Shown in pieces: positions 27,914 through 52,088 of a DNA stretch of 64,000 nucleotides; positions within the stretch are counted from its first letter, which is position 1, and every line of letters begins with the position of its first letter. Under the pieces are notes generated by a model. That model worked only from the letters and a program-made list of their open reading frames with translations, was not told the origin of the DNA and searched no databases. The stretch comes from Rhododendron vialii (taxonomy: Eukaryota > Streptophyta > Magnoliopsida > Ericales > Ericaceae): assembly GCF_030253575.1 (NCBI RefSeq), contig NC_080558.1, forward strand, positions 6,396,001 to 6,460,000, given 5' to 3'. Both the position numbers and the translations under genes were made by a program.

Positions 27914-28115
27914 TGCTTGCCCTTGCTGGAAATCTTTTCTTTTTCGACTTTTGGATATCATATCTTTCATATGTTTCTCCAAAGACTTTCTCATGGAGGT
28001 CTCTCTGTACTTGAGTATTATAAGCAAAAAAGCATCAAATGGAGCTTCTCGAAAATAAGCTTTTCCATCTCTTTAAGTTGTTTCTTGCGTATAAACAGAA
28101 AGCAAAAGAAGTTGG
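27914..28115. repeat. Repeat shared with 45996-46225
   Basis: About 200 bp, including CTTGCCCTTGCTGGAAATCTT, TTTGGATATCAT and GGAGCTTCTCGAAAATAAGC, matches 45996-46225 in direct orientation with modest divergence. The copies flank the array and the PHD-finger gene remains on both sides. Whether they are an older duplication or parts of a dispersed element is unclear. Confidence 0.75.
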
Positions 28116-28139: not shown

Positions 28140-28227
28140 GACTGAAATCCAAAAAGGTCGCTCGGGGTTCCAAGTTCCAGTAAGTTACGTTGTTGGGGCC
28201 AGAAATTCATTGTAAAACAGTCAAAAG
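28140..28227 (+). pseudogene. Left part of interrupted IDM1/ROS4-like PHD-finger gene
   Basis: Immediately left of the array the plus strand has an open frame (about 28155-28227). It continues, in the same phase and across one copy of the 8-bp repeat GTCAAAAG, into the frame right of the array at 44435. That right-hand frame encodes a recognisable PHD-finger protein. This left piece is short and not diagnostic by itself; a TGA lies at about 28142-28144. The assignment rests on the shared frame and the target duplication. Confidence 0.45.
28220..28227. repeat. 8-bp direct repeat GTCAAAAG, left border of array
   Basis: This exact octamer directly abuts the TAAGGGTCATCAT terminus of the first E element. 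The same octamer abuts the last E element at 44427-44434. Confidence 0.85.
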
Positions 28228-28620
28228 TAAGGGTCATCATCGGGCCGGGCCGGGCTGGCCTAGCTCGCCAAGTCACTACCCAAGCCTGTGGGACTTTTAC
28301 TTTTTTACGGGCCGGGCTACCTGTCATAAATTGAAGCGCAAGCCCGACCCATGGGCCCGCTCAATTAACTGGCTAGCGGGCCAAAAGCTGGGCGGGCTGG
28401 CTTAAATTTCCTTGGGCAAGGGAAAAAAGAAAGGATTTTGTGGGATTTTGTGGCTAATGGGTGGGCCTGTGGCAGGCTATTGGGTGGGTGCCACGGGCGG
28501 GCCGAGTAAAAATTCATAGGCCCGAGCCCGCCCATTACAAACTACGGGCCGGGTAAAAGCCCGATGGGCCGGGCGGGCTTTGGGCGGGCCGCGGGCCTTC
28601 GGGCTAAATGATGACCCTTA
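28228..28620. mobile_element. E element 1 (GC-rich, hAT-like), array left end
   Basis: The 5' terminus is TAAGGGTCATCAT and the 3' terminus ATGATGACCCTTA, a perfect 13-bp terminal inverted repeat. The interior is full of GGGCC and GCCCG words. The left flank is GTCAAAAG and the right flank TTTACACT. It shares the variants CACTACCCAAGCC, GAGTAAAAATTC and GGGTAAAAGCCCGAT with E6 only. Confidence 0.85.
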
Positions 28621-29758
28621 TTTACACTTCATCGAATCCTAGGGAAACTTGTTTCATCATTCACCGAAAGTGGGGCTTAATTAGTTTCGAAGCCAAATTT
28701 TGGAGGTTACAACCACCAACACAATGTAAAAACTCTTTGAAACGGTTTCTCCTACACTTCGATGAAATGTAGATGCTCTTTGAACTCTTTCAAACAGTTA
28801 AGCAATGAAGATATACATATGAACAAGGGGTTTGTTTACCAAATGAAACATAGAACGTGTTTTATCCTTGGTAGCCATGAAGATTTGATAGTGGTCTTCT
28901 TTCTACCCAATTTTCGTAAATGAAACATGAATTTTTTTTAATGATTGTACTCCATCATCTGTTATTATACTTCAAAAACTCTATCTATTGATATATAATG
29001 GGTCTTTTTCCGTTTTAAAATGAGGGACATACGAGCGTTTTACCGAAATAAATTACTTTTTTGATCCACTGAGGGTAAAATGGTCACATCTCTTGTTGTA
29101 CAATTGATTTTTTATCGAAAATAATTGGGTTAGAAAGTAAATTGAACAAGATTTTCAACGATTCAAACCATGCACAAATCGGATTTCGGGAGTTCCTGTA
29201 TCAAGCTTGCAAAGTTCGACTTGTTTTGGATTGTGGGGGATGCGCCTGGGGCGCAATGAAGTGCGCCCGGGACGCTTTGAATTGCGCCTCAGGAGCAATA
29301 AAGCTTCAAAAGAGGTCAAATTTTGAAGGGTTGCCCTGGACGCTCCAAAACTCCGATTTGCACATAGTTTGAACCATTTAAAAGCTTGTTCAATTTTCTT
29401 TCTAACCAGGATAGTTTGGATTAAAAAATCATTTGTATATCAAGAAATGTGACTATTTTACCCTCAATGGTTCAAAAAAATAATCCATTTCGAAAAACGC
29501 TCATATGTCCCTCATTTTAAATCGAATCGAGCCCACTGTATATAAATAATTTGAGTTTTTAAAGGAATAAGAGGTGGTGCAATCCAACCATAAAAATATT
29601 TAATTTTTGTTAATGAAAATTGGGTAGAAATGAACAACTACGAAAATCGTCAAGGCGACTAGGGCTAAAACATGTTCTAATTATCATTCGGTGATCAAAT
29701 CCTTAGTTCATTCGTATTACTTCGTTGGTTAAGTGAATTTCAAAGATTTTTTAAATAA
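28621..29758. repeat. Foldback unit A1
   Basis: It starts TTTACACTTCATCGAATCC. The left half (from about 28790) and the reverse complement of the right half align for about 400 bp; for example, AAAATGAGGGACATACGAGCG near 29018 pairs with CGCTCATATGTCCCTCATTTT near 29500. The central segment near 29240-29300 is GCGCC-rich (TGCGCCTGGGGCGC, GTGCGCCCGGGACGC). Confidence 0.8.
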
Positions 29759-30904
29759 TTTACACTTCATCGAACCGTAGGAAAAACTGTTGCATCATTC
29801 CCCGAAAGCGGGGCTTAATAATTTCGAAGCCAAATTTTAGAAGTTATGACTACCAACACAGCGTTAAAACTCTTTGAAACGATTTCTCCTACGCTTCCTA
29901 CATTGTAGACGCTCTATGAACTCTTTGAAACACTTAAGCAATGAAGAAATACATACGGACTAGGTATTTGATCATCGAATGAAACCAAGAACATGTTTTA
30001 GTCTTGGTGGCCTTGACGATTTTTGTAGTGGTCTTCTTTCTACCCAATTTTCATAAGCGAAACTTGAATTTTTTTATGGTTGGATTCCATCATCTCTTTG
30101 TACCTCAAAAACTATATTTGTTGATACATAATGGGTCTTGATCCGATTCAAAGTGAGGGATGTACGGGCCTCTTACTGAAATGAGTTATTTTTTTGTACC
30201 ACTGAGGGTAAAATGGTCACATCTCTTGATATACAAACGATTTTTTTACCCAAACTGCTTGGGTTAGAAAGAAAATTGAACAAGCTTTTCAACAGTTCAA
30301 ACCATGAGCAAATTGGACTTCGGGAGTGTCCAGGGCAACCCTTCAAAGTTTGGCGTCTTTTGAAGCTGTATTGCTCCGGAGGCACAATTCTATGCGCCCA
30401 GGCGCACTTCAAATGCGCCCCAGGCGCATCCTCCATTCCAAAACAAGTCAAACTTTGCGAGCTTAACACAGACACTCCTGAAATCCGATGCATGCGTGGT
30501 TTGAACCGTTGACAAGGTTGTTCAATTTGCTTTCTAACCCAAGTAGTGTGGATAAAAAAAAATCATTCGTATATCAAGTGATGTGACCATTTTACCCTCA
30601 GTGGGTCAAAAACAATTAATTTTAGTAAAACACTCATATGTCCCCCATTTCAAATCGGATCAAGACCCATTATATATCAATAATTATAGTTTTTAAATTA
30701 TTAAGAGATGGTGCAATCCAACCATAAAAAAAAAAAAAAAGAAGTTTCGTCTATAAAAATTGGGTTGAAAGGACTGCTACATAAATCGTCAAGGCGACTA
30801 TGACCAAAACACGTTCAAAATTTCATTCGGTGATCAAATCCTTAGTTGTAGGTATATCTTCATTGGTTAAGTGAATATCAAAGAGTTTATAAAGCATTTA
30901 CACT
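29759..30904. repeat. Foldback unit B1, centre inverted relative to A
   Basis: The first ~190 bp match A in direct orientation. The central segment matches A only as reverse complement: GTCCAGGGCAACCCTTCAAA, near 30330 here, reads as TTTGAAGGGTTGCCCTGGAC in A1 near 29322. The flanking arms are self-complementary as in A. It ends at TTTACACT beside E2. Confidence 0.8.
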
Positions 30905-31316
30905 TAAGGGTCATTATCGGGCCGGGCCGGCCTAGCCCGCCAAGTCACTACCAAAGCCCGCCCACGGGCCGGCTGACCGGGCTTTTACTTTTTTGCGGGC
31001 CGGGCTACCTGTCATAAATTGAAGCGCAAGCCCGGCCCACGGGCTAGCTCGATTAACTGGCAAGCAGGCCAAAAGCCGGGAGGGCTTAAATTTCCTTGGG
31101 CAAGGGAAAAAAGAAAGGATTTTGTGGGATTTTGGGCTAATGGGTGGGCCTGTGGCAGGCTATTGGGCGGGTGCCACGGGCGGGCTCATAGGCCGGGCCG
31201 AGTTAAAATTCATAGGCCCAAGCCCGCCCATAACAAACTACGGGCCAGGTAAAAGCCAAATGGGCCGGGCGGGCTTCGGGCGGGCCGCGGGCCTTCGGGC
31301 TAAATGATGACCCTTA
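30905..31316. mobile_element. E element 2
   Basis: The termini are TAAGGGTCATTAT and ATGATGACCCTTA. The left flank is TTTACACT (30897-30904). The right flank begins TTTAC and is then interrupted by the small MITE at 31322. Confidence 0.85.
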
Positions 31317-31321
31317 TTTAC

Positions 31322-31450
31322 GAGAGAGATTATTCCATGCCCCCGGGGCTTTCTGCACCACACATTTCAGTGGCCCCCACTAAAATGTGTGGTGCAGAAA
31401 GCCCTGGGGCACCACGTGGCTATGCCCTTGGGGCATCGTATAATTTTTCC
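31322..31450. mobile_element. 129-bp MITE with strong hairpin
   Basis: It is flanked by exact TTATTTAC octamers (31314-31321 and 31451-31458). Ends are imperfect inverted repeats converging on ATGCCCC. Inside, a 22-bp arm GGGCTTTCTGCACCACACAT.. (31346-31367) pairs perfectly with 31383-31404. It is followed inward by AGTGG/CCACT, and extends outward to CCCC/GGGG with one mismatch. Only this repeat unit carries it, so it inserted after amplification. Confidence 0.85.
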
Positions 31451-32591
31451 TTATTTACAATTCATCGAATCCTATGGAAAACTGTTTCATCATTCGCCAA
31501 AAGCGGGGCTTAAATAGTTTCGAAGCCAAATTTTGGAGATTACAACCACCAACACAATGTAAAAACTCTTTGAAACGATTTCTCCTATACTTCGATGAAA
31601 TGTAGATGTTCTTTGAACTCTTTCAAACAGTTAAGCAATGAAGATATACGTACGAACAAGGGGTTTGATTACCAAATGAAACATAGAACGAGTTTTATCC
31701 GTGGTAGCCAAGAAAATTTGATAATGGTCTTCTTTCTACCCAATTTTCGTAAACGAAACATGAATTTTTTTTATGAATGTACTCCATCATCTGTTATTAT
31801 ACTTCAAAAACTCTATATATTGATATATAATGGGTCTCTTTCTGTTTTAAAAAGAGGGACATACGAGCGTTTTACCGAAATAAATTATTTTTTTGACCCA
31901 CTGAGGGTAAAATGGTCACATCTCTTGTTGTACAAATGATTTTTTATCCAAAATAATTGGGTTAGAACGTAAATTGAACAAGCTTTTCAACGATCCAAAC
32001 CATGCACAAATTGGATTTCGGAAGTTCCTGTATCAAGCTTGCAAAGTTCGACTTGTCTTTGAGTGTGGGGGATGCGCCCGGGGCGCAATGAAGTGCGCCC
32101 GGGGCGCTTTGAATTGCGCCTCAAAAGCAATAAAGCTTCAAAAGAGGTCGAATTTTGAAGGGTTGCCCTGGACGCTCCCGAACTCCGATTTCCCCATAGT
32201 TTGAACCATTTAAAAGCTTGTTCAATTTTCTTTCTAACCCGGATAGTTTGGATTAAAAAAATCATTTGAATATCAAGAAATATGACTATTTTACCCTCAA
32301 TGGTTCAAAAAAATAATCCATTTGGAAAAACGCTCATATGTCCCTCATTTTAAATCGAATCAAGCCCATTATATATAAATAATTTGAGTTTTTAAAGGAA
32401 TAAGAGATGGTGCAATCCAACCATAAAAATATTTACTTTTCGTTTATGAAAATTGGGTAGAAATGAAGAACTACAAAAATCGTCAAGGTAACTAAGGCTA
32501 AAACATGTTCTAATTATCATTCGGTGATCAAATCCTCAGTTCGTAGGTATTACTTCGTTGGTTAAGTGAATTTCAAGGAGTTTATAAATAA
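31451..32591. repeat. Foldback unit A2
   Basis: It has the same organisation as A1, with centre TGCGCCCGGGGCGC repeated near 32072 and 32094. It begins after the MITE's second target octamer. Confidence 0.8.
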
Positions 32592-33731
32592 TTTACACTT
32601 CATCGAACCATAGGAAAAACTGTTCCATCATTCCCTGAAAGCGGGGCTTAATAATTTCGAAGCCAAATTTTAGAAGTTACGACTACCAACACAACGTTAA
32701 AACTCTTTGAAACGATTTCTCCTACGCTTCGATGGAATGTAGACACTCTATGAACTCTTTGAAACACTTAAGGAAAGAAGAAATACGTACGAACTAGGGA
32801 TCTGATCATCGAATGAAACCAATAACGTGTTTTAGTCTAGGTGGCCTTGACGATTTTTGCAGTGGTCTTCTTTCCACCCAATTTTCATAAGCAAAACTTG
32901 AATTTTTTTTATGGTTGGATTCCATCATCTCTTTGTACCTCAAAAACTATATTTCTTGATATATAATGGGTTTTGATCCGATTCAAAGTGAGGGATGTAC
33001 GGGCCTCTTACCGAAATGAGTTATTTTATTGAACCACTGAGGGTAAAATGGCTACATCTCTTGATATACAAACGATTTTTTTATCCGAACTGCTTGGGTT
33101 AGAAAGAAATTGAACAAGCTTTTCAACGGTTCAAATCACGCGCAAATTGGAGTTCGGGAGTGTCCAGGACAACCCTTCAAAGTTTGGCGTCTTTTGAAGT
33201 TTTATTGCTCCTGAGGCGCAATTCTATGCGCCCAGGCACACTTCAAATGCGCGCCAGGCGCATCCTACATTCCAAAACAAGTCAAACTTTGCGAGATTGA
33301 TACAGACACTCCTGAAATCCGATGCATGCGTGGTTTGAACCGTTGAAAAGGTTGTTCAATTTGCTTTCTAACCCAAGTAGTGTGGATAAAAAAAAATCAT
33401 TCGTATATCAAGTGATGTGACCATTTTACCCTCAATGGGTCAAAAACAATTAATTTTAGTAAAACACTCATATGTCCCCCATTTTAAATCGGATCAAGAC
33501 CCATTATATATCAATAATTAGAGTTTTTAAATTATTAAGAGATGGTGCAATCCAACCATAAAAAAAAAAAGTTTCGTCTATAAAAATTGGGTTGAAAGGA
33601 CTGCTACATAAATCGTCAAGGCGACTAAGACCAAAACATGTTCAAAATTTCATTCGGTGATCAAATCCTTAGTTGTAGGTATATCTTCATTGGTTAAGTG
33701 AATATCAACGAGTTTATAAAGCATTTACACT
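32592..33731. repeat. Foldback unit B2
   Basis: It has the same organisation as B1 and ends at TTTACACT (33724-33731) next to the truncated third E element. Confidence 0.8.
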
Positions 33732-33787
33732 TAAGGGTCATCATTGAGCCGGGCTGGCCTAGCCCACCAAGTCACTACCAAAGCCCG
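33732..33787. mobile_element. E element 3, truncated to 56 bp
   Basis: Only the 5' end (TAAGGGTCATCATTGAGCC...) remains. It is cut by the LTR start TGTAGACACC at 33788. Confidence 0.85.
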
Positions 33788-35759
33788 TGTAGACACCCCA
33801 ATCTGACTTCCCAATCGTTTTATTTCATTTTCCGGTTTCTTGTTTCCCCGATGATGAATCAGGTCGAGAACAATCTTGAGAAAATGAAATGGTTTGAGCT
33901 TGGTGTGTGTGGAACTCATCCTTAGCCTTGAAACCCTTGAATCCAAACCTTGACCTCAGGTTTGACCATCGCGCGACCCAATGGGTCTCTCGCGCGATGA
34001 TTTACTTGCCAGGTGGTGGTCAAAGTCAAAGTTTTGACCATTGACCATCGCGGGGCTAGTTGAACACTAGCGCGATGGAGTAAAACCCTCACGCGATGGT
34101 TAACACCTGTCACTTCCATCTTTTTCCAGCTGGATTTTGTGATGATCAGGGGTCTACAGACTTGTGTAACCCCGTTTCGTCGACTGAACAGCGTTCTGCA
34201 GGGCTGCCCTTACACCACCTCTCCCCCACTCTCCCATCAACTTTTGCACCCCACTTCCCCACCAAGTAATTGCAGCCAACCTTGTTGGCTGGTTGTATTA
34301 CCTTGTTTAACCAACCAACAAAGCCCCCATTCTTCCTATAAGTATCCCCCATGGTTCATCTTCCAAAGGGTTACCAAAAATTTCCAAAAGAGAAAAAAAA
34401 AGGGTATAAGTCTAAGCACTTCTTCCACTCAAATCACTCCTCTATACTCATTTTCCAAGCCATACCACCTTATTCAAGCCATTCCCAAGACACTCAAGCA
34501 AAGGTATAATCCTTACTGTTTACTGTTTTGATCCCTGAGGGGGGTTGACAGGGCCAAGGCTGGTAATCAATACCAGTTCTGGTCCTAAAGTCAGCAAGTT
34601 TACAAGTTACTGCAGGCAAGCACTCCCTCGCGCGAGACACCCACTCCATCGCGCGACTGTTCTAGTCACCGTGATATGGTTCTCGTGGGGATGGGATCCT
34701 TGTCCTTATTCATTTACACAATTTCCTGTCTTCTCGTAAAGAATATTTAGTATATCTCACTGTTATGCATGTTAAAATCTGTAGGTTAGCTTAGCTTGCT
34801 TATTTGTTTGCTTTGGAATGCCCCTGGATAGCTTCTGAATATGTCTCAGAGCCCCGACATGTAAAGTAATTCCTGGAAGTCCAGTCAGAACACTCGCGCG
34901 ATGATCTGACTCCATCGCGCGATGGTCAGTCTGTTTCCAGTGATTGCCCTTGCATAGGCAGTCAGGCTCTTGGCCTCTGTTTTGATACCCTCACTTTTAA
35001 GGGTTGCATCTTATTTCTGTTAATCTTGATTGTAATAATTATTTGCCTTCTGTACATATAAATTGCTAGGTTTGACCCTGGGTGTGCACTGGTCCTTTTA
35101 GAGCTCAGAAGGGGATAAAATTTAACCCATTGGTAGGATGCTAACACTCGCGCGATGGACTGGGAGTGTCGCGCGATGGTCAAAATTGCATGTAAGAACC
35201 TTCATGCATGCAAGTTGGCCGTTGTTCATGACAAACTCAAGCCAAGGCACTGTTTTGGCATCCAATATCAGCGTTAGATTTTATCTCATTTATTTCTCGC
35301 ATTTCATCCATCCATGCTATCTATTCACATCTTGCGACGTGTTACAGTCTTAAATCCCCTTAAACTGTTCCCCCGCCGTAATTGGCTAAAAATTGATTAA
35401 TCAAACAGAATCGCAAACAAACATCTTTCGCAAATGCCCAAGTAGAGACCGATCTCCGGATTGGGCGAGAGGGGTGCCATAAAACCCTTCCCCTCTCGTA
35501 ACCTGACTCTCAAACCCAGATATGGTTATGACGGATTGGTTCCTTAAACTTTTTCAAATCAAAACAGCGCGACAAGTGCTTCGAAATTACGGTTCCTTGG
35601 GTGTTGGACCTTCAAACCCGAGTGGCGACTCTGTATCTTCGCGAGCGCTTGTCGTCCAGCTTCAAAAAAGCGCTCCCGCGAACCAGCAGCATTTTCTCTT
35701 CTTGGGAGTGGAACGGAATCCCTTCCCGAGGAAAGAAAAACGGGTACCGCATGCCCACA
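33788..35759 (+). repeat. 5' LTR of the Tat-like element
   Basis: It begins TGTAGACACC and ends CCCACA one base before the primer-binding site, giving about 1.97 kb. It contains eleven CGCGCGATGG-type sites between 33966 and 35179, several as closely spaced pairs; 34912-34925 is the perfect palindrome CCATCGCGCGATGG. Open frames inside are not protein genes. Confidence 0.8.
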
Positions 35760-35760
35760 G

Positions 35761-35778
35761 TGGCGACTCTGCTGGGGA
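35761..35778 (+). promoter_or_regulatory. Primer-binding site, tRNA-Arg type
   Basis: TGGCGACTCTGCTGGGGA is complementary to the 3' end of plant tRNA-Arg(ACG), whose acceptor end reads CCCCAGCGGAGTCGCCA, with a single C-to-T change. tRNA-Arg priming is characteristic of Tat/Ogre-lineage Ty3 elements. Confidence 0.8.
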
Positions 35779-37060
35779 TCGAATCAATATTGGTCTATAC
35801 TTAGATTTTAATATGCTTGAGAACAATCCCACAAAAGTCTGTCAAAATAGTAAGCTTCGCGCTGCTAAAGAAAGGATTGGTGATTTAACAGGACTTCGTG
35901 TCCGGCAATCCTGCCTGGGACTTTTTTCGGTTGTTCTCTCATGTAGTTTTTTCTAAGTATTGATCAATAAAGAGAGCCAAATTTGAAAAAGCATTTGCGA
36001 ATTTGCGATTCTGTTCCATTAATCAAACTTTTTAGCATTCTCATTTGCATTGATGTTGGATAAGTCTCGTTGGATCGTTTTGGCAATCCGGCACGGTTTA
36101 CCAAAGCTCGGGGACCCCGAATGACCAACAACCTTCGACGATGATGAGTCATTCTACCGTTCGACTATTGCTCTGCGATTACGCGGGCAGCGGGAGGTAT
36201 ATCTTGGCTCTAGTCCGAGGAACCCGTTATAAGCCAAAACCAGCCTTTGCATATACAAAGTACTAGAACTCTCCAAACTAGGACAGGTACCTACAGGGTA
36301 GGATTTCTTGCATCGAACCCCTATATACTGTCTACATGTTACTGCTTTCCCTATCACATGCACAGTACATACATGCCGTTTTGCGTAGAAGCATGTTTAG
36401 GGCGGCTCCTAGGTTGTCTCAATTTCGAGTCTGTCTTATGCTTATTAAGACATTGCCATGGCCTGATGAAGAGTCGTGCATCTCGATGGTGCACGTTATC
36501 AATTTTCAAAGTCCTTAGATCAGCGAGACTTCGAGAAATCAAACCTTTTTAAAGTCTTTGGCTCATACCCAATCGAAGTTTCAAACAGAAAATAAGGAAC
36601 AACGGAGAGAATGCCGTGATGCTTATACCGCCTTGGTCATCGTGCGCAGCATGTACACCGTTTAGGCTATGGCACTGTGCCGCCTACGCCGCCTCAGTTT
36701 CGGTATCACGCCATCTACACCGAGTTGTTCCAAGTTCAAAGTTGAAACTTCGGGAACGGAATAGTCAAAAGCCTTAGACTGTTTTGACATCTCTTTGGGT
36801 TAGTTGATTCAAGAAAGGATACACCCTCGAAAAGATTTCTGAGGATCGTTGGCAGCGTCCGAACATCATAAGACAGACTTGTCTTCTAGTCTTAGAGTCT
36901 AAGGGCGACACTGACGACGATGACTGTGCTTTCGCTTTAGTCTTTTATTTAGATTAAAGTTGCTGCAGGGCCCTTATTAAGCCTTTTCTTACTTTCTGCA
37001 AGCAAAGTTCTGAATCATTGCACCGCCAAGGAAAGTATCGAGGCAGAAAGCCGAACCCAC

Positions 37061-38143
37061 TTGGGAACGTTTGCTCGGAATCCGGTTCAAAGGCTAGTCA
37101 GGTTGCAAGCCCAACTAGTCACCACGGAAGACTCTCCGCATTTTCTGCTTGCCACCCTACAGTCAGCCTCGTCTCCTATCTTTGAGGAAAGAGAGTCTCC
37201 AGAATCACCTACTCCATCCTCTGCATCAAGCACCTCAGGACCACTAGTCATGACAGATCAACCGCAACCCCTCACTTTGGAAACCTTCCTCATGAACATC
37301 CAGACTAGTATCACGGCTATACAACAGAGGGCTGCTCAAACAGACGCCCATATGACCCGCTTGAATGACTTCTTTAACACTCGTCTTCCTCCAGCTGTTC
37401 AAGACGAAGATGAGGCCGAAGAGGATGTGCATGAACAACCCACCATGGTCGAGGATCCGGACCATCCAGGGCGTTTGGTAGCTTTGCTCAACCCTAGGAG
37501 AGGTTGAATTCCTGCTCAGAATCCAAGCACCACTGCCGTTAGGACTGTTCAGCACCCTGACATGACTGCTCTTGTCGCCAAGATGGCTAAGCTGGAAGAA
37601 TCCATTTCAAAAGCCGAGAAGATCAGTGCTGGGGGAATCGACTTGGATCGCCTCTGCCTCTATCCTAATGCTAAGCTCCCCGACAAATTCAAAATGCCTG
37701 ACATGGCCAAATTTGACGGCAGTGGCGATCCTAAGACTCATCTCTATGGTTACCACGCTGCCATGAAGCTCCTATCAGTACCGAGGCCATGTCTTAGCTG
37801 TTTCCTCAAACCCTCTCGGGCCCTGCTTTCCACTGGTTTCTGTCACTCGACATCGCCAAGCGAAGGACTTGGGAGGACATCGGGGCTGCGTTTATTTCGC
37901 AGTACAGCTATAATTCTCAGCTCAAGATGACTACTCGTGAGTTGGAGTCCACCAAAATGGAAGCAAAGGAATCCTTCGCGGATTTCGTCAAAAGGTGGAG
38001 GGCCAAGGCTGCTCAAATAACCGAACGCCCGAGCAAGAGGGATCAGCTTCGTATCATCTCCCGCAACCTCCAGCCCGATTATGCTAGGCACTTGGTCCTT
38101 GTTCAAGCATCCTCCAATTTCGACACCTTGTTCAAGCATCCTC
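37061..38143 (+). pseudogene. Decayed gag fragment of the retrotransposon
   Basis: Frames on the plus strand encode a plant Ty3 gag: a region following MTDQPQPLTLETFL (about 37250), then KMPDMAKFDGSGDPKTHL (about 37694), then the retrotransposon gag helix region around ESFADFVKRWRAKAAQ (about 37970). There is an in-frame TGA at 37505-37507 and a frame change between about 37785 and 37900. The sequence ends without zinc knuckle or protease. It is not functional. Confidence 0.8.
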
Positions 38144-38630
38144 AAATGCGGCCCAGGCGCATCCTACATTCCAAAACAAGTCAAACTTTGCGAGCTTGAT
38201 ACAGACACTCCTGAAATCCGATGCATGCGTGGTTTGAACTGTTGAAAAGGTTGTTCAATTTGCTTTCTAACCCAAGTAGTGTGGATAAAAAAAAAATCAT
38301 TCGTATATCAAGTGATGTGACCATTTTACCCTCAGTGGGTCAAAAACAATTAATTTTAGTAAAACACTCATATGTCCCCCATTTTAAATCGGATCAAGAC
38401 CCATTATATATCAATAATTAGAGTTTTTAAATTATTAAGAGATGGTGCAATCCAACCATAAAAAAAAAAGCTTCGTCTATAAAAATTGGGTTGAAAGCAC
38501 CACTACATAAATTGTCAAGGCGACTAAGACCAAAACACGTTCAAAATTTCATTCGGTGATAAAATCCTTAGTTGAAGGTATATCTTCATTGGTTAAGTGA
38601 ATATGAAAGAGTTTATAAAGAATTCACACT
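38144..38630. repeat. 3' half of foldback unit B3
   Basis: It resumes in the GCGCC-rich centre (CCCAGGCGCATCCTACATTC) and runs to the junction with E4. The corresponding point in the next period is about 40825. Confidence 0.8.
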
Positions 38631-39035
38631 TAAGGGTCATCATCAGGCCGGGCCGGGCCGGGCTAGCCCGCCAAGTCACTACCAAAGCCCGCCCACGGGC
38701 CGGCCGACCGGGCTTTTACATTTTTGCCAGCCGAGCTACTTGTCATAAATTGAAGCGCAAGCCCAGCCCACGGCCTAACTCAATTAACGGGCTAGCGGGC
38801 CAAAAGCCGGGAGGGCTTAAATTTCCTTGGTCAAGGGAAAAAAGAAAGGATTTTGTGGGATTTTGGGCTAATGGGTGGGCCCTGGCAGGCTATTGGGCAG
38901 GTGCCACGGGCGGGCTCACAGGCCGGGCTGAGTTAAAGTTCATAGGCCCAAGCCCGCCCATTACAAACTACGGGCCAGGTAAATGCCAGATGGGCCGGGC
39001 GGGCCGCGGGCCTTCGGGTTAAATGATGACCCTTA
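38631..39035. mobile_element. E element 4
   Basis: The termini are TAAGGGTCATCAT and ATGATGACCCTTA. The left flank TTCACACT is a one-base variant of TTTACACT; the right flank is TTTACACT. Confidence 0.85.
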
Positions 39036-40172
39036 TTTACACTTCATCAAATCCTATGGAAAACTATTTCATCATTCGCCGAAAGCGGGGCTTAAATAGT
39101 TTCGAAGCCAAATTTTGGAGGTTACAACCACCAACACAATGTAAAAACTCTTTGAAACGGTTTCTCCTACACTTCGATGAAATGTAGATACTCTTTGAAC
39201 TCTTTCAAACAGTTAAGCAATGAAGATATACGAACGAACAAGGGGTTTGATTACCAAATGAAACATAGAACGTGTTTTATCCTTGGTAGCCATGAAGATT
39301 TGATAATGGTCTTCTTTCTACCCAATTTTCATTAACGAAACATGAATTGTTTTTATGATTGTACCCCATCATCTGTTATTATACTTCAAAAGCTCAATCA
39401 ATTGATATATAATGGGTCTTTTTCCGTTTTAAAATGAGGGACATACGAGCGTTTTACCGAAATAAATTACTTTTTTGATCCACTGAGGGTAAAATGGTCA
39501 CATCTCTTGTTATACAAATGATTTTTTGTCCAAAATAATTGGTTTAGAAAGTAAATTGAACAAGCTTTTCAACGATCCAAACCATGCACAAATCGGATTT
39601 CGGTAGTTCCTGTGTCAAGCTTGCAAAGTTCGAATTGTTTTTGAGTGTGGGGGATGCGCCTGGGGCGCAATGAAGTGCGCCCGGGGCGCTTTGAATTGCG
39701 CCTCAGGAGCAATAAAGCTTCAAAAGAGGTCAAATTTTGAAGGGTTGCCCTGGACGCTCCCGAACTCCGATTTCCACAAAGTTTGAACCATTTAAAAGCT
39801 TGTTCAATTTTCTTTCTAACCCGGATTGTTTAGATTAAAAAATTATTTGAATATCAAGAAATATGACTATTTTACCCTCAATGGTTCAAAAAAATAATCC
39901 ATTTCGAAAAACGCTCATATGTCCCTCATTTTAAATCGAATCAAGCACATTATACATAAATAATTTGAGTTTTTAAAGGAATAAGAGATGGTGCAATCCA
40001 ACCATAAAAATATTTAATTTTCGTTTATGAAAATTGGGTAGAAATGAACAACTACAAAAATCGTCAAGGCGACTAAGGCTAAAACATGTTCTAATTATCA
40101 TTCGGTGATCAAATCCTCAGTTCGTAGGTATTTCTTCGTTGGTTAAGTGAATTTCAAAGAGTTTATAAATAA
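39036..40172. repeat. Foldback unit A4
   Basis: Organisation is as for A1, with centre near 39655-39710 (TGCGCCTGGGGCGC, GTGCGCCCGGGGCGC). Confidence 0.8.
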
Positions 40173-41309
40173 TTTACACTTCATCGAACCGTAGGAAAAA
40201 CTGTTCCATCATTCCCCGAAGGCGGGGCTTAATAATTTCGAAGCCAAATTTTAGAAGTTACGACTACCAACACAACGTTAAAACTCTTTGAAAGGATTTC
40301 TCCTACGCTTCGATGAAATGTAGACACTCTATGAACTCTTTGAAACACTTAAGCAATGAAGAAATATGTACGAACTACGGATCTGATCATCGAATGAAAC
40401 CAAGAACGTGTTTTAGTCTTGGTGGCCTTCACGATTTTTGTAGTGGTCTTCTTTCTACCCAATTTTCATAAGCAAAACTTGAATTTTTTTATGGTTGGAT
40501 TCCATCATCTCTTTGTACCTCCAAAACCATATTTGTTGATGAATAATGGGTTTTGATCCGATTCAAAGTGAGGGATGTACGGGCCTCTTACCGAAATGAG
40601 TTGTTTTATTGAACCACTGAGGGTAAAATGGTCACATCTCTTGATATACTAACGATTTTTTACCCGAACTGCTTGGGTTAGAAAGAAAATTGAACAAGCT
40701 TTTCAACGGTTCAAATCACGCGCAAATTGAAGTTCGGGAGTGTCTAGGGCAACCCTTCAAAGCTTGAAGACTTTTGAAGCTTTATTGCTCCTGAGCCATA
40801 ATTCTATGCGCCCAGGCGCACTTCAAATGCGCCGCAGGCACATCCTACATTCTAAAACAAGTCAAACTTTGCGAGCTTGATACAGACACTCCTGAAATCC
40901 GATGCATGCGTGGTTTGAACCGTTGAAAAGGTTTTTCAATTTGCTTTCTAACCCAAGTAGTGTGGATAAAAAAAATCATTCGTATATCAAGTGATTTGAC
41001 CATTTTACCCTCAGTGGGTCAAAAACAATTAATTTTAGTAAAACACTCAGATGTCCCCCATTTTTAATCGGATCAAGACCCATTATATATCAATAATTAG
41101 AGTTTTTAAAATATTAAGAGTTGGTGCAATCCAACCATTAAAAAAAAAGTTTCGTCTATAAAAATTGGGTTGAAAGGACCACTACATAAATCGTCAAGGC
41201 AACTAAGAACAAAACACGTTCAAAATTGCATTCGGTGATAAAATCCTAAGTTGTAGGTATACCTTCATTGGTTAAGTGAATATCAAAGAGTTTATAAAGC
41301 ATTCACACT
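40173..41309. repeat. Foldback unit B4
   Basis: Organisation is as for B1, with the inverted centre near 40780-40850. The left arm shows a few private changes. Confidence 0.8.
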
Positions 41310-41725
41310 TAAGGGTCATCATCGGGCCGGGCCGGGCCAACCTAGCCCGCCAAGTCACTACCAAAGACCGCCCGCGGGCCAGCCGACTGGGCTTTTACTT
41401 TTTTGCGGGCCGGGCAACCTGTCATAAATTGAAGCGCAAGCCCGGCCCACGGGCTAGCTCAATTAACGGTCTAGCGGGCCAAAAGCCGGGAGGGCTTAAA
41501 TTTCCTTGGGCAAGGGAAAAAAGAAAGGATTTTGTGGAATTTTGGGCTAATGGGTGGGCCCTGGCAGGCTATTGGGTGGGTGCCACGGGCGGGCTCACAG
41601 GCCGGGCTGAGTTAAAATTCATAGGCCCGAGCCCGCCCATTACAAACTACGGGCCAGGTAAATGCCAGATGGGCCGGGCGGGCTTTGGGTGGGTAGCGGG
41701 CCTTCGGGTTAAATGATGACCCTTA
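41310..41725. mobile_element. E element 5
   Basis: The termini are TAAGGGTCATCAT and ATGATGACCCTTA. Flanks are TTCACACT and TTTACACT. It is most similar to E4 (both have AGGTAAATGCCAGATGG). Confidence 0.85.
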
Positions 41726-42861
41726 TTTACACTTCATCGAATCCTATGGAAAACTGTTTCATCATTCGCCGAAAGCGGGGCTTAAATAGTTTCGAAGCCA
41801 AATTTTGGAGGTTACAACCACCAACACAATGTAAAAACTCTTTGAAACGGTTTCTCCTACACTTCGATGAAATGTAGATGCTCTTTGAACTCTTTCAAAC
41901 AGTTAAGCAATGAAGATTTACGTACGAACAAGGGGTTTGATTACCAAATGAAACATAGAACGTGTTTTATCCTTGGTAGCCATGAAGATTTGATAATGGT
42001 CTTCTTTCTACCCAATTTTCGTAAACGAAACATGAATTTTTTTTATGATTGTACTCCGTCATCTGTTATTATACTTCAAAAGCTCTATCTATTGATATAT
42101 AATGGGTCTTTTTCCGTTTTAAAATGAGGGACATACGAGCATTTTACCGAAATAAATTACTTTTTTGATCCACTGAGGGTAAAATGGTCACATCTCTTGT
42201 TATACAAATGATTTTTTATCCAAAATAATTGGTTAAGAAAGTAAATTGAACAAGCTTTTCAAAGATCCAAACCATGCACAAATCGGATTTCGGGAGTTCC
42301 TGTATCAAGCTTGCAAAGTTCGAATTGTTTTTGAGTGTGGGGGATGCGCCTGCGGCGCAATAAAGTGCGCCCGGGGCGCTTTGAATTGCGCCTCAGGAGC
42401 AATAAAGCTTCAAAAGAGGTCAAATTTTGAAGGGTTGCCCTGGACGCTCCCGAACTCCCATTTCCACATAGTTTGAACCATTTAAAAGCTTGTTCAATTT
42501 TCTTTCTAACCCGGATAGTTTGGATTAAAAAATCATTTGAATATCAAGAAATATTACTATTTTACCATCAATGGTTCAAAAAATAATGCATTTCGAAAAA
42601 CGCTCATATGTCCCTCATTTTAAATCGAATCAAGCCCATTATATATAAATAATTTGAGTTTTTAAAGGAATAAGAGATGGTGCAATCCAACCATAAAAAT
42701 ATTTAATTTTCGTTTATGAAAATTGGGTAGAAATGAACAACTACAAAAATCGTCAAGGCGACTAAGGCTAAAACATGTTCTAATTATCATTCGGTGATCA
42801 AATCCTCAGTTCGTAGGTATTTCTTCGTTGGTTAAGTGAATTTCAAAGAGTTTATAAATAA
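41726..42861. repeat. Foldback unit A5
   Basis: Organisation is as for A1, and it is nearly identical to A4. Arms are about 41885-42290 and 42470-42855. Confidence 0.8.
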
Positions 42862-44000
42862 TTTACACTTCATCGAACCGTAGGAAAAACTGTTCCATCA
42901 TTCCCCGAAGGCGGGGCTTAATAATTTCGAAGCCAAATTTTAGAAGTTACGACTACCAACACAACGTTAAAACTCTTTGAAACGATTTCTCCTACGCTTC
43001 GATGAAATGTAGACACTCTATGAACTCTTTGAAACACTTAAGCAATGAAGAAATACGTACGAACTACGGATCTGATCATCGAATGAAACCAAGAACGTGT
43101 TTTAGTCTTGGTGGCCTTCACGATTTTTGTAGTGGTCTTCTTTCCACCCAATTTTCATAAGCGAAACTTGAATTTTTTATGGTTGGATTCCATCATCTCT
43201 TTGTACCTCAAAAACTATATTTGTTGATATATAATGGGTTTTGATCCGATTCAAAGTGAGGGATGTACGGGCCTCTTACCGAAATGAGTTATATTTTTTT
43301 TGAACCCCTGAGGGTAAAATGGTCACATCTCTTGATATACAAACGATTTTTTATCCGAACTGCTTGGGTTAGAAAGAAAATTGAACAAGCTTTTCAACGG
43401 TTCAAACCACACGCAAATTGGAGTTCGGGAGTGTCCAGGGCAACCCTTCAAAGTTTGGCGTCTTTTGAAGTTTTATTGCTCCTGAGGAGCAATTCTATGC
43501 GCCCAGGCGCACTTCTAATGCGCCCCAGGCGTATCCTACATTCCAAAACAAGTCAAACTTTGCGAGCTTGATACAGACACTCCTGAAATCCGATGCATGC
43601 GTGGTTTGAACCGTTGAAAAGGTTGTTCAATTTGCTTTCTAACCCAAGTAGTGTGGATTAAAAAAATCTTTCGAATATATCAAGTGATGTGACCATTTTA
43701 CCCATAGTGGGTCAAAAACAATTAATTTTAATAAAACACTCATATGTCCCCCATTTTAAATCGGATCAAGACCCATTATATATCAATAATTAGAGTTTTT
43801 AAATTATTAAGAGATGGGGCAATCCAACCATAAAAAAAAGTTTCGTCGGTAAAAATTGGGTAGACAGGACCACTACAAAAATCGTCAAGGCGACTAAGAC
43901 CAAAACACGTTCAAAATTTCGTTCGGTGATCAAATCCTTAGTTGTAAGTATATCTTCATTGGTTAAGTGAATATCAAAGAGTTTATAAAGCATTTACACT
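42862..44000. repeat. Foldback unit B5
   Basis: Organisation is as for B1, ending at TTTACACT (43993-44000). Confidence 0.8.
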
Positions 44001-44426
44001 TAAGGGTCATCATCGGGCCGGGCCAGCCTAGTCCGCCAAGTCACTACCCAAGCCCGCCCACGGGCCGGGCCGACCGGGCTTTTACTTTTTTGCGAGCTGG
44101 GCTACCTGTCATAAATTGAAGCGCAAGCCCGGCCCACAGGCTAGCTCAATTAACGGGCTAGCGGGCCAAAAGTCGGGCGAGCTTAAATTTCCTTGAAGCA
44201 AGGGAAAAAAGAAAGGATTTTGTGGGATTTTGGGCTAATGGGTTGGCCCGTGGCTGGCTATTGGGCAGGTGCCACAGGCGGGCTCACAGGCCGGGCCTAC
44301 GGGCAGGCCGAGTAAAAATTCATAGGCCCGAGCCCGCCCATTACAAACTATGGGCTGGGTAAAAGCCCGATTGGCCGGGCGGGCTTTGGGCGGGCCGCGG
44401 GCCTTCGGGCTAATTGATGACCCTTA
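44001..44426. mobile_element. E element 6, array right end
   Basis: The 5' terminus is TAAGGGTCATCAT and the 3' terminus TTGATGACCCTTA, with one mismatch in the inverted repeat. The left flank is TTTACACT and the right flank GTCAAAAG. It shares diagnostic variants with E1. Confidence 0.85.
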
Positions 44427-44434
44427 GTCAAAAG
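44427..44434. repeat. 8-bp direct repeat GTCAAAAG, right border of array
   Basis: It exactly matches 28220-28227 and directly abuts the 3' terminus of E6. Confidence 0.85.
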
Positions 44435-45840
44435 GGAGCAAGCAAAGGGGAGTTTACAAAAGCAGTACAGAAAAGCAGATATTGAGAGATCGAATAATGG
44501 CTACGCTTACGAGGGCAAGGCTGGACAATTGATTATAGGCCCAGGTCCGGCAGAGAGATAGCTAGAGAGTACTTTGACGCTGTATATGTTAGTCCCACAG
44601 GACGTGGTTTGCGGTCACAGTTACCTTGGCTTGCGATGTTCTTAGACAACAAGTTGAAAGTGGCAAGGCTGATAGTAGGGGCGCTTGCTGCATTTACTCC
44701 GATACCAGAAGAGGAATTAAGCAAATTATTCAGGATAACAAAGAAAATGGGACTACAAAAAGGGATTGAAGGGAGAAACAGAGGGTGGTAATAAGAAACA
44801 CAAAGGAGTTACTCAAAAGAAGAAGTTTAAAAAGAACAATGCCGGCAGAGGAACAAAACAGAAATCGTCAGACTCTGAACAAGACGTTCCAGCTAATACA
44901 TCTCGGAGGGTAATGCAAAGATCATGTCGGCGGGAGAGAGAACATGGAAAGAGATATGCTCTGGTGGGTCATCACTCGAAAAAGGGATTGGATCCAGACA
45001 GTGAAGGCTTTGTAATATATGAACCATAGAAGGACTCAAGTATTGCTTGAGAGCAGGATAACCAGAGATGGCATTCGATGCGACTGCTGCAAAGAAACCC
45101 TTGCTCTCGCAGAATTTGAGTCTCTCATGCTGGAAGTAGAGTCACACAACCATTTGAGAATATTTATCTCAAGTCCGGTAAGTTCCCTTTTCCAGTGTCT
45201 AGTAGACTCGTGGAGCAAACATGATGGGCCTGAATGCGCTTGAGCCCATCCTGTCGAAGTTGATGGCGGTGATCTAAATGATGATGCCGATAAAAAAGAA
45301 GATCCAAATAATGATACATGCAACAAATTCGTGTTGGTGTGTTCTATGCGGTAGCAATCTTAGGCTTATTCATTTGTAGGCAGTCCAACACGAATAATCC
45401 AAAGCTTCCAGGCGGCAGACTAAAAAAATATGTACAAAATGTGTTGGACCATGTTATGGAGATAGGTTTCCAGATAAAGTTTCTGGGCATCCAAATCAAA
45501 TTTTGTCTAAAAAGCAGTTGGGTTTCACTTATGTAATGTTTTTGCAGTGCTTGTTCGGCAAAGTAATGTCTCTGCTGCTGTGCGGATAGAGAAATTTCAT
45601 TTCGATTAGCATATATCAAAATCTTTAAGTGCAAGGGTTCTCTATCGGCCAACACAATAATCATTATTTCCTTTGCATTGCAGAAGTTCCCTTCCGGTGA
45701 CAAGTTTTGTGGCATGGTTGGTGGGAATACATGTCAGAGTGGCGATGCAACTGGCTCTGCAGTGCTAAGTTGCCGGTTGTGCGAGGAAAAATGTAGGCAC
45801 TACACTTATCACAGTGCTATGATTTTTTCGGGATTTTTTC
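44427..45840 (+). pseudogene. IDM1/ROS4-like PHD-finger protein, right part, pseudogene
   Basis: Plus-strand frames reproduce landmarks of plant IDM1/ROS4-like PHD-finger (GNAT) chromatin proteins. They are GWTIDYRPRSGRE...FDAVYVSPTGRG (about 44520-44600), a Lys-rich linker, SRITRDGIRCDCCKETL followed in another frame by HAGSRVTQPFENIYLKSG and SLFQCLVDSW (about 45045-45210, the Jas/TPL-binding-like domain), and a degenerate Cys-rich segment with SCRLCEEKC (about 45765). Family members read histone marks and regulate DNA demethylation. Frameshifts occur near 44515, 45120 and 45175, and a stop at 45027-45029. The acetyltransferase domain was not found. The gene was interrupted by the array; whether it was already broken beforehand cannot be told. 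Confidence 0.7.
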
Positions 45841-47921
45841 AACTCTGTATTTCACTATTTGATTCCGGGAGATGGCTAGTTTATCTTAAATACAGATTAT
45901 GTTGCCTTTTGCAGACCACCTACTCTGTGGAAAATTCGGATCGTCCGTCTTTTGGTTTTACTCTGACACAAATCCTCCTGTCTTATTTTATCTGTATCGC
46001 TTGCCCTTGCTGGAAATCTTCTTCTTCTTCTTTTTTTTTTTTTTGACCTTTGGATATCATTTCTTTCATCTGTTTCTCCAAAGGTCTTCTCATAGAGGTC
46101 TCCTTGTACTTGATTATTCAAAATTATAGGCAAAAAAACAAGATTCTAAATGGAGCATCTCGAAAATAAGCTTTTTCAGCTCTTTAAGTTGTTTCCAGCG
46201 TATAAACAGAAAACAAAAGTTGTTCTAGACCAAACGATAAAGAGGGAGTCATGAGTTGCGGCTTAATTCTTCCATACATTTTATTCTTGGCATTGTGATT
46301 CAAATGGGTTCTCCCTTCCATTTCAAATACATTATGTCCTGTCTGATGAATTCTTTTTTAGTTCTAGACCGAATATTCTGTATGAGGATGTAAAATCATG
46401 CTCATGTGAAGATGTGCAAGTGCTGTGGTAATTACTGGTCGAGTCAGATGCAGCTTTGTTTTCAAAACAATGAACTCTCTTCATCTAGCTCTATGGAAAT
46501 TACCCTAAGAGAGGAGGGATTCATGAAAAAAGACGGCAAGTGTACATATTTACTTACATTGCACTCATGGGGAAGCCATTTTTCATGGTCTTGTCCTGTC
46601 TTTCCTCTGGTAATCCTGGTATTTTTCAGCTCAATACATATATGTTCCTGGTATGCATTACGTTCCTGGTATGCATTACATTCCCAAAGAATCTCTCTTT
46701 CAACCAGACTCGCATTTGAGAACAGCCAGCTAAGCATCCACGTTCACGCATGCTTACACAATCAAGCACTACACTATACATACACATTTAGGAGTCCAGA
46801 TTTGAAGTTTTATTTTGGCCCACAAGAACATAACTATAGCACACATCATATCTATAAGGGCAATGGAAAAAGGATCCATTTCCCTATTCAACCGAAAGGA
46901 TATCAATCATCGCATGAACTAACTAAGGCATTTCCCCACCCGTGCCCAAAATATACCTTTGGTGGGCTTCCCCAGAGTGACACCGAAGGTCTTGGAATCA
47001 CTTCCACCTCAAACCTAAGTTACAAATGAACCTAACCCAAGCTCCAAAAGAACAAAAGACCACAGCGGAGAGGACATCTAGGTTTGTTAGAATGATTTAG
47101 ATTATGTAGTTCAAGGCTTGTTCTGATAAATGTGGATTTCCAACTGGAGGGATTTGACATTATGAATAGCTCAAATTGACAATTAGAGATTGAGTTTTGG
47201 AGCTTTATCGCTCTGAAATCTGGATTTGAAATGACCACCAAATAGGAGTGACTTAAAACCGTTCATGTTAAGGATTGCAGTGATGTTGAACAAAACAAAA
47301 ACAGGGATCGCAGTTAGATAAGATTTCGATAAAATACCGCCACTTCTACCTCTAGTCCATCTTCCACTGTTTCTCACAAGCCACCTATAGGTCCACAATT
47401 CCACATCCATCCATGGTCCATCAAAACGAAGCCTATATGTTTATTTTGGTTAGTCTCACTTAATAATTTCACCAGATAATTAGGGTCATTCTAACCATAA
47501 GTAGCATCGCAAGGCGGACACCAAGCATAATTCCACAACTTCATGGAAAAATTCTTCACATTCAACCGCTTCCCTCATTCTCATTAGATTTAGATTACCT
47601 AAACATCATCGAAACATCTAAATCCACACCAACTAAACTAACTTCCCCCGACCCTCATCAACATTTTGAAAATTTGAGCAAATATATATACATATGCGCA
47701 TTGAAAAGGCCAGACTTCTTTTTTTTTTGATAAGTATGAATCACAGAAAAAAGTCCGGACTTTAATTGCATTAGATCACGAATTGTCTACAAAAAAAAAA
47801 AAAAAAACTACTAGGTAGTTCAATCTTCCAATACAAATTTCTGCAGCAAAGAAGCCACTGAATCATGTATTAATTACTCACTGAGCTTTGATGGAACCCT
47901 AAAACACGAGGCGATTGATTA
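45841..47921. other. No gene recognised; 45996-46225 repeats 27914-28115
   Basis: Apart from the repeat shared with the left flank of the array, I see no supported gene. A 207-codon plus-strand frame at 46406-47029 has no recognisable domain and includes a small tandem repeat of CGTTCCTGGTATGCATTA-type words. It looks incidental. Confidence 0.45.
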
Positions 47922-49205: not shown

Positions 49206-50127
49206 GTATACACTGGGTATTTTGATCAATTGTTTTTGCCGCATGAATTGAGTTGATTTGGGATTTGCTATCTTAGGTTTCTTCATCAAATGAGGTTACA
49301 AAGCGAATGTGGTTGCCTTCACCACTCTACTAAATGGGTATATTTTACAAGATAACACTGCTGATGCTGTGAAATTGTTCCTGAGGTTGGTGAAAGACAG
49401 AGACATTATACCAAATGAGGTTACGTATGGGACAATCATAAACGGCCTTTGTAAACTTGGAAACACTACAATGGCTGTACAGTTGGTCCGGAGTATGCAA
49501 AAATGGAACTTTAAGCCTAATGTTGTGATGTATAGCACTATCATCGACAACCTTTGTAAGGACGGACACATAGATGATGCTTTCAGTCTCTTGTCAGAGA
49601 TGAGAGAGTGGGATGTAATGCCAAACGTGGTTTCTTATACCTCTTTGGTTGATGGCTTGTGCAAATTGGGTCGATGGTTGGACGCCCACAAGAATGTTGC
49701 GAGATATGACGGAGCAAAATATTATTCCAAATGTTTTAACCTTTAATACATTGGTGGATGCACTTTGCAAGGAAGGAAAGACTAAAGAGGCAGAGCATAT
49801 ACTCGCGATCATGATTCGAAGAGGTGAGGAACCCGATGTAGTGACTTACAGTGCACTTATGGACAGATATTATTTGCAAGGACACATGGACAATGCAAAA
49901 GAAGTGTTCAACTCCCTAGTGGATAAGGGCCTTGAGCCCGACATATGCAGCTATAGTATTTTTGGTGAATGGATACTGCAAGAGGAGTAATATAGACAAA
50001 GCCATGCATCTCTTCCGCGGGCTTGTAAAGGGTTAAAACCTGATACCGTCACTTACACCACTTTGTTGAATGGGCTGTTTACATTAGGAAGGTGCGATAC
50101 CGCAAATAGTTGTTTCAGGAGATGATA

Positions 50128-51531: not shown

Positions 51532-52088
51532 TGATACATAAAGGTCACAATCCTAACATTTTAACTTACTCGGTTTTGTTAGACGGCTTCTTAAAGAACC
51601 ACGAAATCGTTAAGGCAGTAGAGGTGTTTCGTTCAATGCAAGATCAGGGCATAACTCCTAATATTGTTGTTTATAATATCCTCATAAATGGCATGTGCAA
51701 AGCTGGGAAAATTGACGATGCTCGGAAACTTTTTAGTTCGATTACAGCTAGAGATTTGCAACCCACTGTTAAGACTTACAACACAATGATTAGTGGACTT
51801 TGTAAGGAGACCCTGCTGGATGAAGTTGAGGAGTTATTCTTGCAAATGGAGGGAGTTGGGTGCCCACCAGATGATGTGACTTACAATATTGTGGTGCGGG
51901 CATTCCTGAGGAGGGAAGGCAATGACAAGGTTATGATACTTCTACAACAAATGATCAATAGGAATTTCTCACTAGATGCATTTACCACATCCATGTTAGT
52001 GGATTTACTTTCGGTTGATGGTGGGGATGGCAAGCTTTTAAAAATGATCCAGAATCTTTTGCCTCGGGATACAAAAAAAATGGCCTGA

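Follow-up and report, generated by a model that had tools for sequence, protein, structure and literature searches.

A 16,199-bp block of tandem repeats inside a gene of Rhododendron vialii probably arrived as one transposition product, in which a hAT transposase would have joined the outer ends of two different copies of a short element, denoted E, to the octamer GTCAAAAG. The block occupies positions 28228-44426 of a 64,000-nucleotide stretch (C2:6396001-6460000, hereafter the window), and between its E copies lie two repeat monomers, denoted A and B. The genome, 532.6 Mb in 13 contigs (C1, C2 and so on), was searched for relatives. The left border of the block is the 5′ end of the first E copy, E1, and the right border is the 3′ end of the last, E6. 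An original prediction made from the window alone had proposed that one 8-bp duplication bounds the whole array and that the span is 16,199 bp. Both points are borne out, with GTCAAAAG abutting E1 and E6 exactly at their outer ends (Table 1).

As an octamer, GTCAAAAG is common, with 5 matches in the 64-kb window against 4.43 expected. Weight attaches instead to where it lies, flush with the outer end of E1 and of E6. A control of cross pairs among 36 E copies from outside the array, matching the left flank of one copy with the right flank of another, reached at most six identical positions of eight (11 of 1260 pairs), while the left and right flanks of the same copy are identical at all eight positions in 29 of the 36. 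A chance octamer is ruled out by the exact position at the outer ends together with the empty sites described next.

Flank searches of the genome found four paralogous loci that span the insertion point from both sides (two on C6, one on C8, and one on C13). None contains the block, and in all four the left-flank and right-flank matches share exactly 8 bp. The original prediction turned on a copy of the gene without E still carrying the octamer at this point. The copies available for this comparison are paralogues in the same genome rather than orthologues, and three of the four read GTCAAAAG while the fourth reads GTAAAAAG, a single change. Three more paralogous loci (L053-L055) fall short of the insertion point. 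Because of the four empty sites, the whole 28228-44426 segment is an insertion.

The site into which E itself would have entered can also be read without its element. The A-B array at C1:1287578-1294550 has no E match on the plus strand, which was the strand searched, and its units are 87-91% identical to those of the window. Its B-to-A boundaries read AAAGCA TTTACACT in two of three cases and AAAGCA TTTACGCT in the third, with no E and no extra octamer. Within the window, six inner E junctions read TTTACACT, and the left junctions of E4 and E5 read TTCACACT. The proposal that every inner junction carries TTTACACT or a one-base variant thus holds for eight of ten; the right junction of E2 is interrupted by a small inserted element (TTTAC, the insert, then TTTACAAT), and that of E3 is lost, E3 being cut at 33787 by a truncated retrotransposon. 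On the simplest view, drawn from the presence of both empty sites, a single entry of E into an A-B array duplicated TTTACACT, and the arrival of an E-ended block in the gene duplicated GTCAAAAG. The C1 array itself is ruled out as the donor, being only 87-91% alike and lacking the extra octamer at its B/A boundaries.

These features are those of a macrotransposon, a segment moved between two transposons. The outer duplication, GTCAAAAG, differs from the inner site, TTTACACT, found at the right of E1 and the left of E6; the two terminal copies, E1 and E6, are in direct orientation, both on the plus strand; and the target site is present without the block at the four paralogous loci.

Perfect 19-base 5′ ends of E number 116 in the genome. 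With E6 as the query, at least 44 matches were obtained, the best 40 of 327 candidates having been scored. Four lie in the array (E1 not among them, which shows the list to be incomplete), 36 lie elsewhere and form the comparison set, and four are small second pieces inside the fetched stretches; the right end of one copy, L041, was shifted by one base after inspection. Besides the 29 of 36 copies with perfect 8-bp flank duplications, four match at seven of eight positions and the rest at one, three, or five. Seven further copies outside this set, counted by eye, include five perfect duplications, one of seven in eight, and one of five in eight. The terminal inverted repeats of E are short, TAAGGGTCATCAT at the 5′ end and ATGATGACCCTTA at the 3′ end, with few variants. 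A 3.9-kb element at C9:12232007-12235892 opens with homology to E 1-183 (77% over 192 positions) and closes with homology to E 299-426 (71% over 160 positions). Its last 13 bases have two positions unlike E, it is bounded by CTCTCGCT on both sides, and its reading frame matches Dimer_Tnp_hAT (5.5e-28) and a hAT-like RNase-H domain (2.7e-09). The fit to hAT transposition that the original prediction drew from the eight-base duplications and the termini is strengthened by the target duplications of the family and by this similar-ended relative with transposase domains. On these grounds, E is supported as a non-autonomous hAT element, with the transposase of the C9 relative as a putative source of mobilization. 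We infer that E is a deletion derivative of an element like that on C9.

Some members of the family have unusual surroundings. The right end of the C9 element is doubled (C9:12232007-12236090), with CTCTCGCT after each copy. Three E copies (L023, L033, and L040) have intact ends and unmatched flanking octamers. A search for other macrotransposons, made around these three, met no second E within ~10 kb on either side. The flanks of another copy, L068, agree at five of eight positions. Direct pairs of E lie ~12-13 kb apart on C8 (L063, L064) and C9 (L026, L065), with the flanking octamer common within each pair (one flank has one change); their layout suggests that they are probably segmental duplications.

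The same outer structure could arise if a circle of E-A-B units recombined into an E already resident at GTCAAAAG, the second reading offered by the original prediction. In a single crossover between such a circle and a resident E, the part of E1 to the left of the crossover and the part of E6 to the right derive from the resident. Eight alignment columns carry a base common to all five full-length array copies of E that is rare in the 36 other copies, where it is absent in six columns, present once in one, and present twice in one. Random sets of five other copies have a mean of 0.001 such columns and a maximum of 1 (2000 draws). For any crossover point, each private column falls in the resident-derived part of one of the two outer copies, and neither E1 nor E6 lacks any of the eight. 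If there was a resident E, it was therefore of the array's own lineage. Integration into an unrelated resident E is ruled out on this ground. A 28-base core of the array lineage, searched with up to 3 mismatches, gave 61 matches, of which only the five window copies have 0-1 mismatches and the other 56 have 2-3, so that no E of the array lineage was found outside the array by this search. The FastTree phylogeny places the five array copies (E1-E6) in one clade, with support of 1.0 when the whole element is used and 0.995 for its left part.

Several observations weigh against insertion of the block as one product between two E ends. In the right part of E, the family copy L026 intrudes into the array clade, and in the last third the array copies mix with the family, 20 sequences being needed to enclose them. 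As the array copies do not stay united in the right part, a different E may have contributed small patches at the termini, or a gap repair with two crossovers may have taken place. The ten private substitutions of E1 all fall in alignment columns 38-179 of 426, while those of E6 lean to the right. A permutation of their owners gives 0.011 for E1, 0.012 for E6, and 0.00045 for both together; a single breakpoint shared by the two gives 0.02. The breakpoints were picked after inspection of the data. Private changes at the left of E1 and the right of E6 are a pattern that the resident-E model also predicts. Within the array, the grouping of E2, E4, and E5 discussed below does not appear when only the left part is used, and conflicting sites unite E4 with E6 (two), E1 with E2 (two), E1 with E5 (one), and E5 with E6 (one). 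Finally, junction-pattern searches of this assembly found no donor locus and no excision footprint. The E-A pattern gave five hits, three exact and all in this array, the two elsewhere having 3 mismatches against five control hits; the five hits of the B-E pattern all fall within this array, and its control gave none. By these patterns, both junctions are confined to this array, save for the two hits at control level.

The distribution of changes among the E copies admits more than one history. By halves, the left of E6 is nearer to the inner copies than the left of E1, and the right of E1 is nearer than the right of E6. A resident E from the array's own lineage would account for these identities, and so would inner copies produced by unequal exchange between the outer two. 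By such an exchange in place, the inner copies may have become hybrids of E6-left and E1-right. Because E1 and E2 share two derived bases, conversion between neighboring copies may also have occurred. The idea that E1-left and E6-right are pieces of a foreign resident E was dropped, the private bases of E1 being mostly rare or absent in the family (36 copies), which marks them as mutations of E1 itself, and also because both halves of E1 and E6 bear array-private bases.

Growth of the array after its insertion may be reflected in the inner units. E2, E4, and E5 share derived states at substitution sites spread over several parts of the element (columns 61, 234, 426, 501, and 513), where E1 and E6 keep the state of the family, and their grouping has a support of 0.958 on the full length. 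With the C1 copies used for polarization, A2, A4, and A5 share five derived sites without A1, against two per conflicting grouping; the B monomers, polarized in the same way, have no clear order. This pattern fits a smaller block at insertion that later grew between the outer E copies, and also fits array ends that escaped homogenization in a donor array.

Transposition of the block probably relied on a hAT transposase supplied in trans. The enzyme would have paired the 5′ end of one E with the 3′ end of a second, similarly oriented copy and treated the two as the ends of a single transposon. The cargo would have been a stretch of a satellite-like A-B dimer array already bearing E at its B/A boundaries. 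In this scheme, an A-B dimer array without E existed first, and one E inserted at a B/A boundary, duplicating TTTACACT. The E-A-B unit would then have been duplicated to give at least two E copies, after which a segment with two outer E ends could have moved to GTCAAAAG in the gene, duplicating 8 bp. The move may have been made by a cut-and-paste macrotransposon or by reversed-ends transposition with re-replication, either of which would leave the same outer structure. The inner units would subsequently have expanded or homogenized, possibly in place, and the small element and the retrotransposon would have inserted last, the retrotransposon with a deletion. The sequences show the use of two different E ends and empty relatives of both target sites; the transposase reaction, the state of the donor, and the order of events from the duplication of the E-A-B unit onward are reconstructed.

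The second of these routes, composite insertion by reversed-ends transposition and re-replication, is counted here within the favored explanation as an unlikely sub-case. Two neighboring E copies would have supplied the ends that face each other across A-B, 3′ from the first and 5′ from the second; these ends would have inserted at GTCAAAAG during replication, and the re-replicated arms would have broken and been joined, with the junction between the retrotransposon and B3 at ~38140 as the joining point. Events of this kind are documented for maize Ac/Ds, where the insertions show 8-bp duplications and outer ends like those of a macrotransposon (PMC4270019), and the array does have one illegitimate junction, that of the retrotransposon to B3. 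However, insertion of the retrotransposon with a simple deletion accounts for this junction equally well. The structure of the block alone fits both macrotransposition and composite insertion and cannot separate them.

A more doubtful alternative is that an E of the same lineage jumped alone to GTCAAAAG, and that an E-A-B circle, or ectopic gap repair on an array template, then added units through E homology before expansion. An identical outer structure is expected from this history, as is the excess of private changes at E1-left and E6-right, and E copies are known to transpose alone in this genome. It needs an additional solo transposition, however, and among the 61 matches to the lineage core (up to 3 mismatches), those with 0-1 mismatches are limited to the five window copies. 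Of the two readings originally offered, transposition between distant E ends is therefore the better supported, although we infer it with the donor not found; the circle is retained only with a resident E of the same lineage, a lineage not found outside the array. An assembly artefact or chance octamer is very improbable: GTCAAAAG is common in the window and tandem arrays are prone to misassembly, but the window has no N, the units differ by ~3-6% (A and B) or 6-10% (E) and bear different insertions, and four empty sites have the 8-bp flank overlap. Recombination of a circle into an unrelated E at GTCAAAAG is scarcely credible, as it explains the outer structure and nothing else and is contradicted by the eight private columns borne by both E1 and E6 at any single crossover.

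The founding paper on macrotransposons is reportedly that of Huang and Dooner in 2008. Excerpts of the maize literature describe Ac/Ds macrotransposons that move the DNA between two elements, up to 100 kb (PMC3260210), and a 28-kb macrotransposon that excised, leaving a modified 8-bp footprint (PMC9910405). Like these, the present block uses the outer 5′ and 3′ ends of two hAT elements as one transposon, has an 8-bp duplication, and carries a long unrelated cargo. It differs in that its ends are ~400-bp non-autonomous elements, that it carries a satellite-like tandem array whose units contain E, and that it is a natural fossil, whereas a maize macrotransposon has been seen to excise. At the maize P1 locus, one study reports, composite insertions arise by reversed-ends transposition with re-replication; they have duplications of 8 bp and borders like those of macrotransposons, and a composite insertion with rolling-circle tandem repeats separated by Ds is proposed there for bz1-m4-D6856 (PMC4270019). 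Such insertions resemble the present case in being bounded by transposable elements, in having an 8-bp duplication, and in that they can accompany tandem repeats separated by transposable elements (PMC4270019). Unlike them, the block here has no adjacent reciprocal duplication or deletion in view.

Circles are one proposal for the dispersal of satellites. Transposons have also been proposed to aid it, according to part of a review (PMC12628747). Tetris, going by the title of its report, likewise links a DNA transposon with a tandem array; there the transposon supplied satellite building blocks (PMC4079207), whereas here a transposon pair carries the array and the A-B monomers exist elsewhere without E. 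No report of a satellite array moved by a hAT pair was found in the literature searched, with subscription papers outside its scope. The mechanism is already known from maize; what sets this case apart is that the cargo is satellite-like and how complete the record is.

It is still an open question how satellite-like arrays come to lie near or in genes, and the case described here would be one concrete path. A single genome preserves the family of E elements, empty relatives of both target sites, a relative that encodes a transposase, and a legible phylogeny within the array, which makes the macrotransposition route testable outside maize. The case suggests that an element inside a tandem array can turn segments of that array into transposons. 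A short non-autonomous element landing in a tandem array would be copied into its units by amplification, and any two copies could then mobilize, as one transposon, however many units lie between them. After the move such a block may keep expanding, while its outermost copies persist as fossils. That hAT-driven composite transposition is a recurrent route seeding satellite-like arrays into genes is a tentative suggestion, on the doubtful side.

The array reads, in order, GTCAAAAG-E1-A1-B1-E2-(small element)-A2-B2-E3 start-retrotransposon-B3 end-E4-A4-B4-E5-A5-B5-E6-GTCAAAAG, with limits as listed in Table 1.

Table 1. Features of the inserted block and its borders, in window coordinates (TIR, terminal inverted repeat).
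Feature	Position	Strand	Basis or remark
Target duplication GTCAAAAG, left copy	28220..28227	+	One octamer at each of the four paralogous loci that lack the block
E1, leftmost non-autonomous hAT element; 5′ end is left end of block	28228..28620	+	Array-private bases at E1 positions 72-263
A1 repeat monomer	28621..29758	+	Sequence comparison
B1 repeat monomer	29759..30904	+	Sequence comparison
E2	30905..31316	+	Sequence comparison
Small TIR element at E2/A2 junction	31322..31449	.	Apparent target duplication, either TTATTTAC or CTTATTTAC; limits may be off by a few bases
A2 repeat monomer	31454..32591	+	Sequence comparison
B2 repeat monomer	32592..33731	+	Sequence comparison
E3, first 56 bases only	33732..33787	+	Sequence comparison
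Truncated retrotransposon	33788..~38140	+	Retrotrans_gag match; illegitimate junction to B3
B3, last 485 bases	38146..38630	+	Sequence comparison
E4	38631..39035	+	Sequence comparison
A4 repeat monomer	39036..40172	+	Sequence comparison
B4 repeat monomer	40173..41309	+	Sequence comparison
E5	41310..41725	+	Sequence comparison
A5 repeat monomer	41726..42861	+	Sequence comparison
B5 repeat monomer	42862..44000	+	Sequence comparison
E6, rightmost E; 3′ end is right end of block	44001..44426	+	Sequence comparison
Target duplication GTCAAAAG, right copy	44427..44434	+	Adjoins E6 3′ end
Nearest coding stretches of host gene, right side	44498..45240	+	MBD/DUF7028 matches below Pfam cut-off, then Tify-domain-binding-domain above cut-off

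Pairwise identity is 90-94% among the five full-length E copies, 94-97% among the A monomers, and 94-97% among the B monomers, and A5 is 78-80% identical to the B copies. A5 and B5 (41726-44000) form imperfect palindromes of ~1 kb (75% over 981 and 76% over 1010 aligned positions). Against the ~five A-B units here, relatives of A and B occur in series on C1, C9, and C2 and also on further contigs, among the best 36 of 1532 candidates scored. The series on C9 (39144056-39195811) has a spacing of ~950 bp, and that on C2 lies at 1907-1916 kb.

Two insertions interrupt the array. The small TIR element, possibly Mutator-like, has an apparent duplication of 8 or 9 bp. The retrotransposon segment contains a Retrotrans_gag match at 37798-38127 (1.2e-08), and other copies in the genome match up to window position 38132-38136; a domain scan of another piece gave nothing relevant. 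A second long terminal repeat is absent from the segment. The stretch from 33788 to ~35760 is taken here to be the 5′ long terminal repeat, given its TG start and the primer-binding-like sequence after it. Missing at this site are the remainder of E3, one whole A, and part of one B. If the missing piece was indeed an E tail, an A, and a B head, the original array had six E copies and five A-B units.

From the end of the right GTCAAAAG copy it is 63 bp to a reading frame whose MBD/DUF7028 matches stay below the Pfam cut-offs; a Tify-domain-binding-domain match above the cut-off (2.4e-06) follows. The host gene is presumably IDM1-like. Because CAGTAAGT at 28178-28185, shortly before the left octamer, resembles a splice donor by eye, the array may lie in an intron of this gene. 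A 79%-identical stretch flanks the array on both sides (27915-28108 and 45999-46219) and is also present at paralogous loci of the same gene family. Farther out, reading frames at 5297-7318, 49309-52088, and 59665-60983, on both strands, are pentatricopeptide-repeat-like and have strong mutual similarity.

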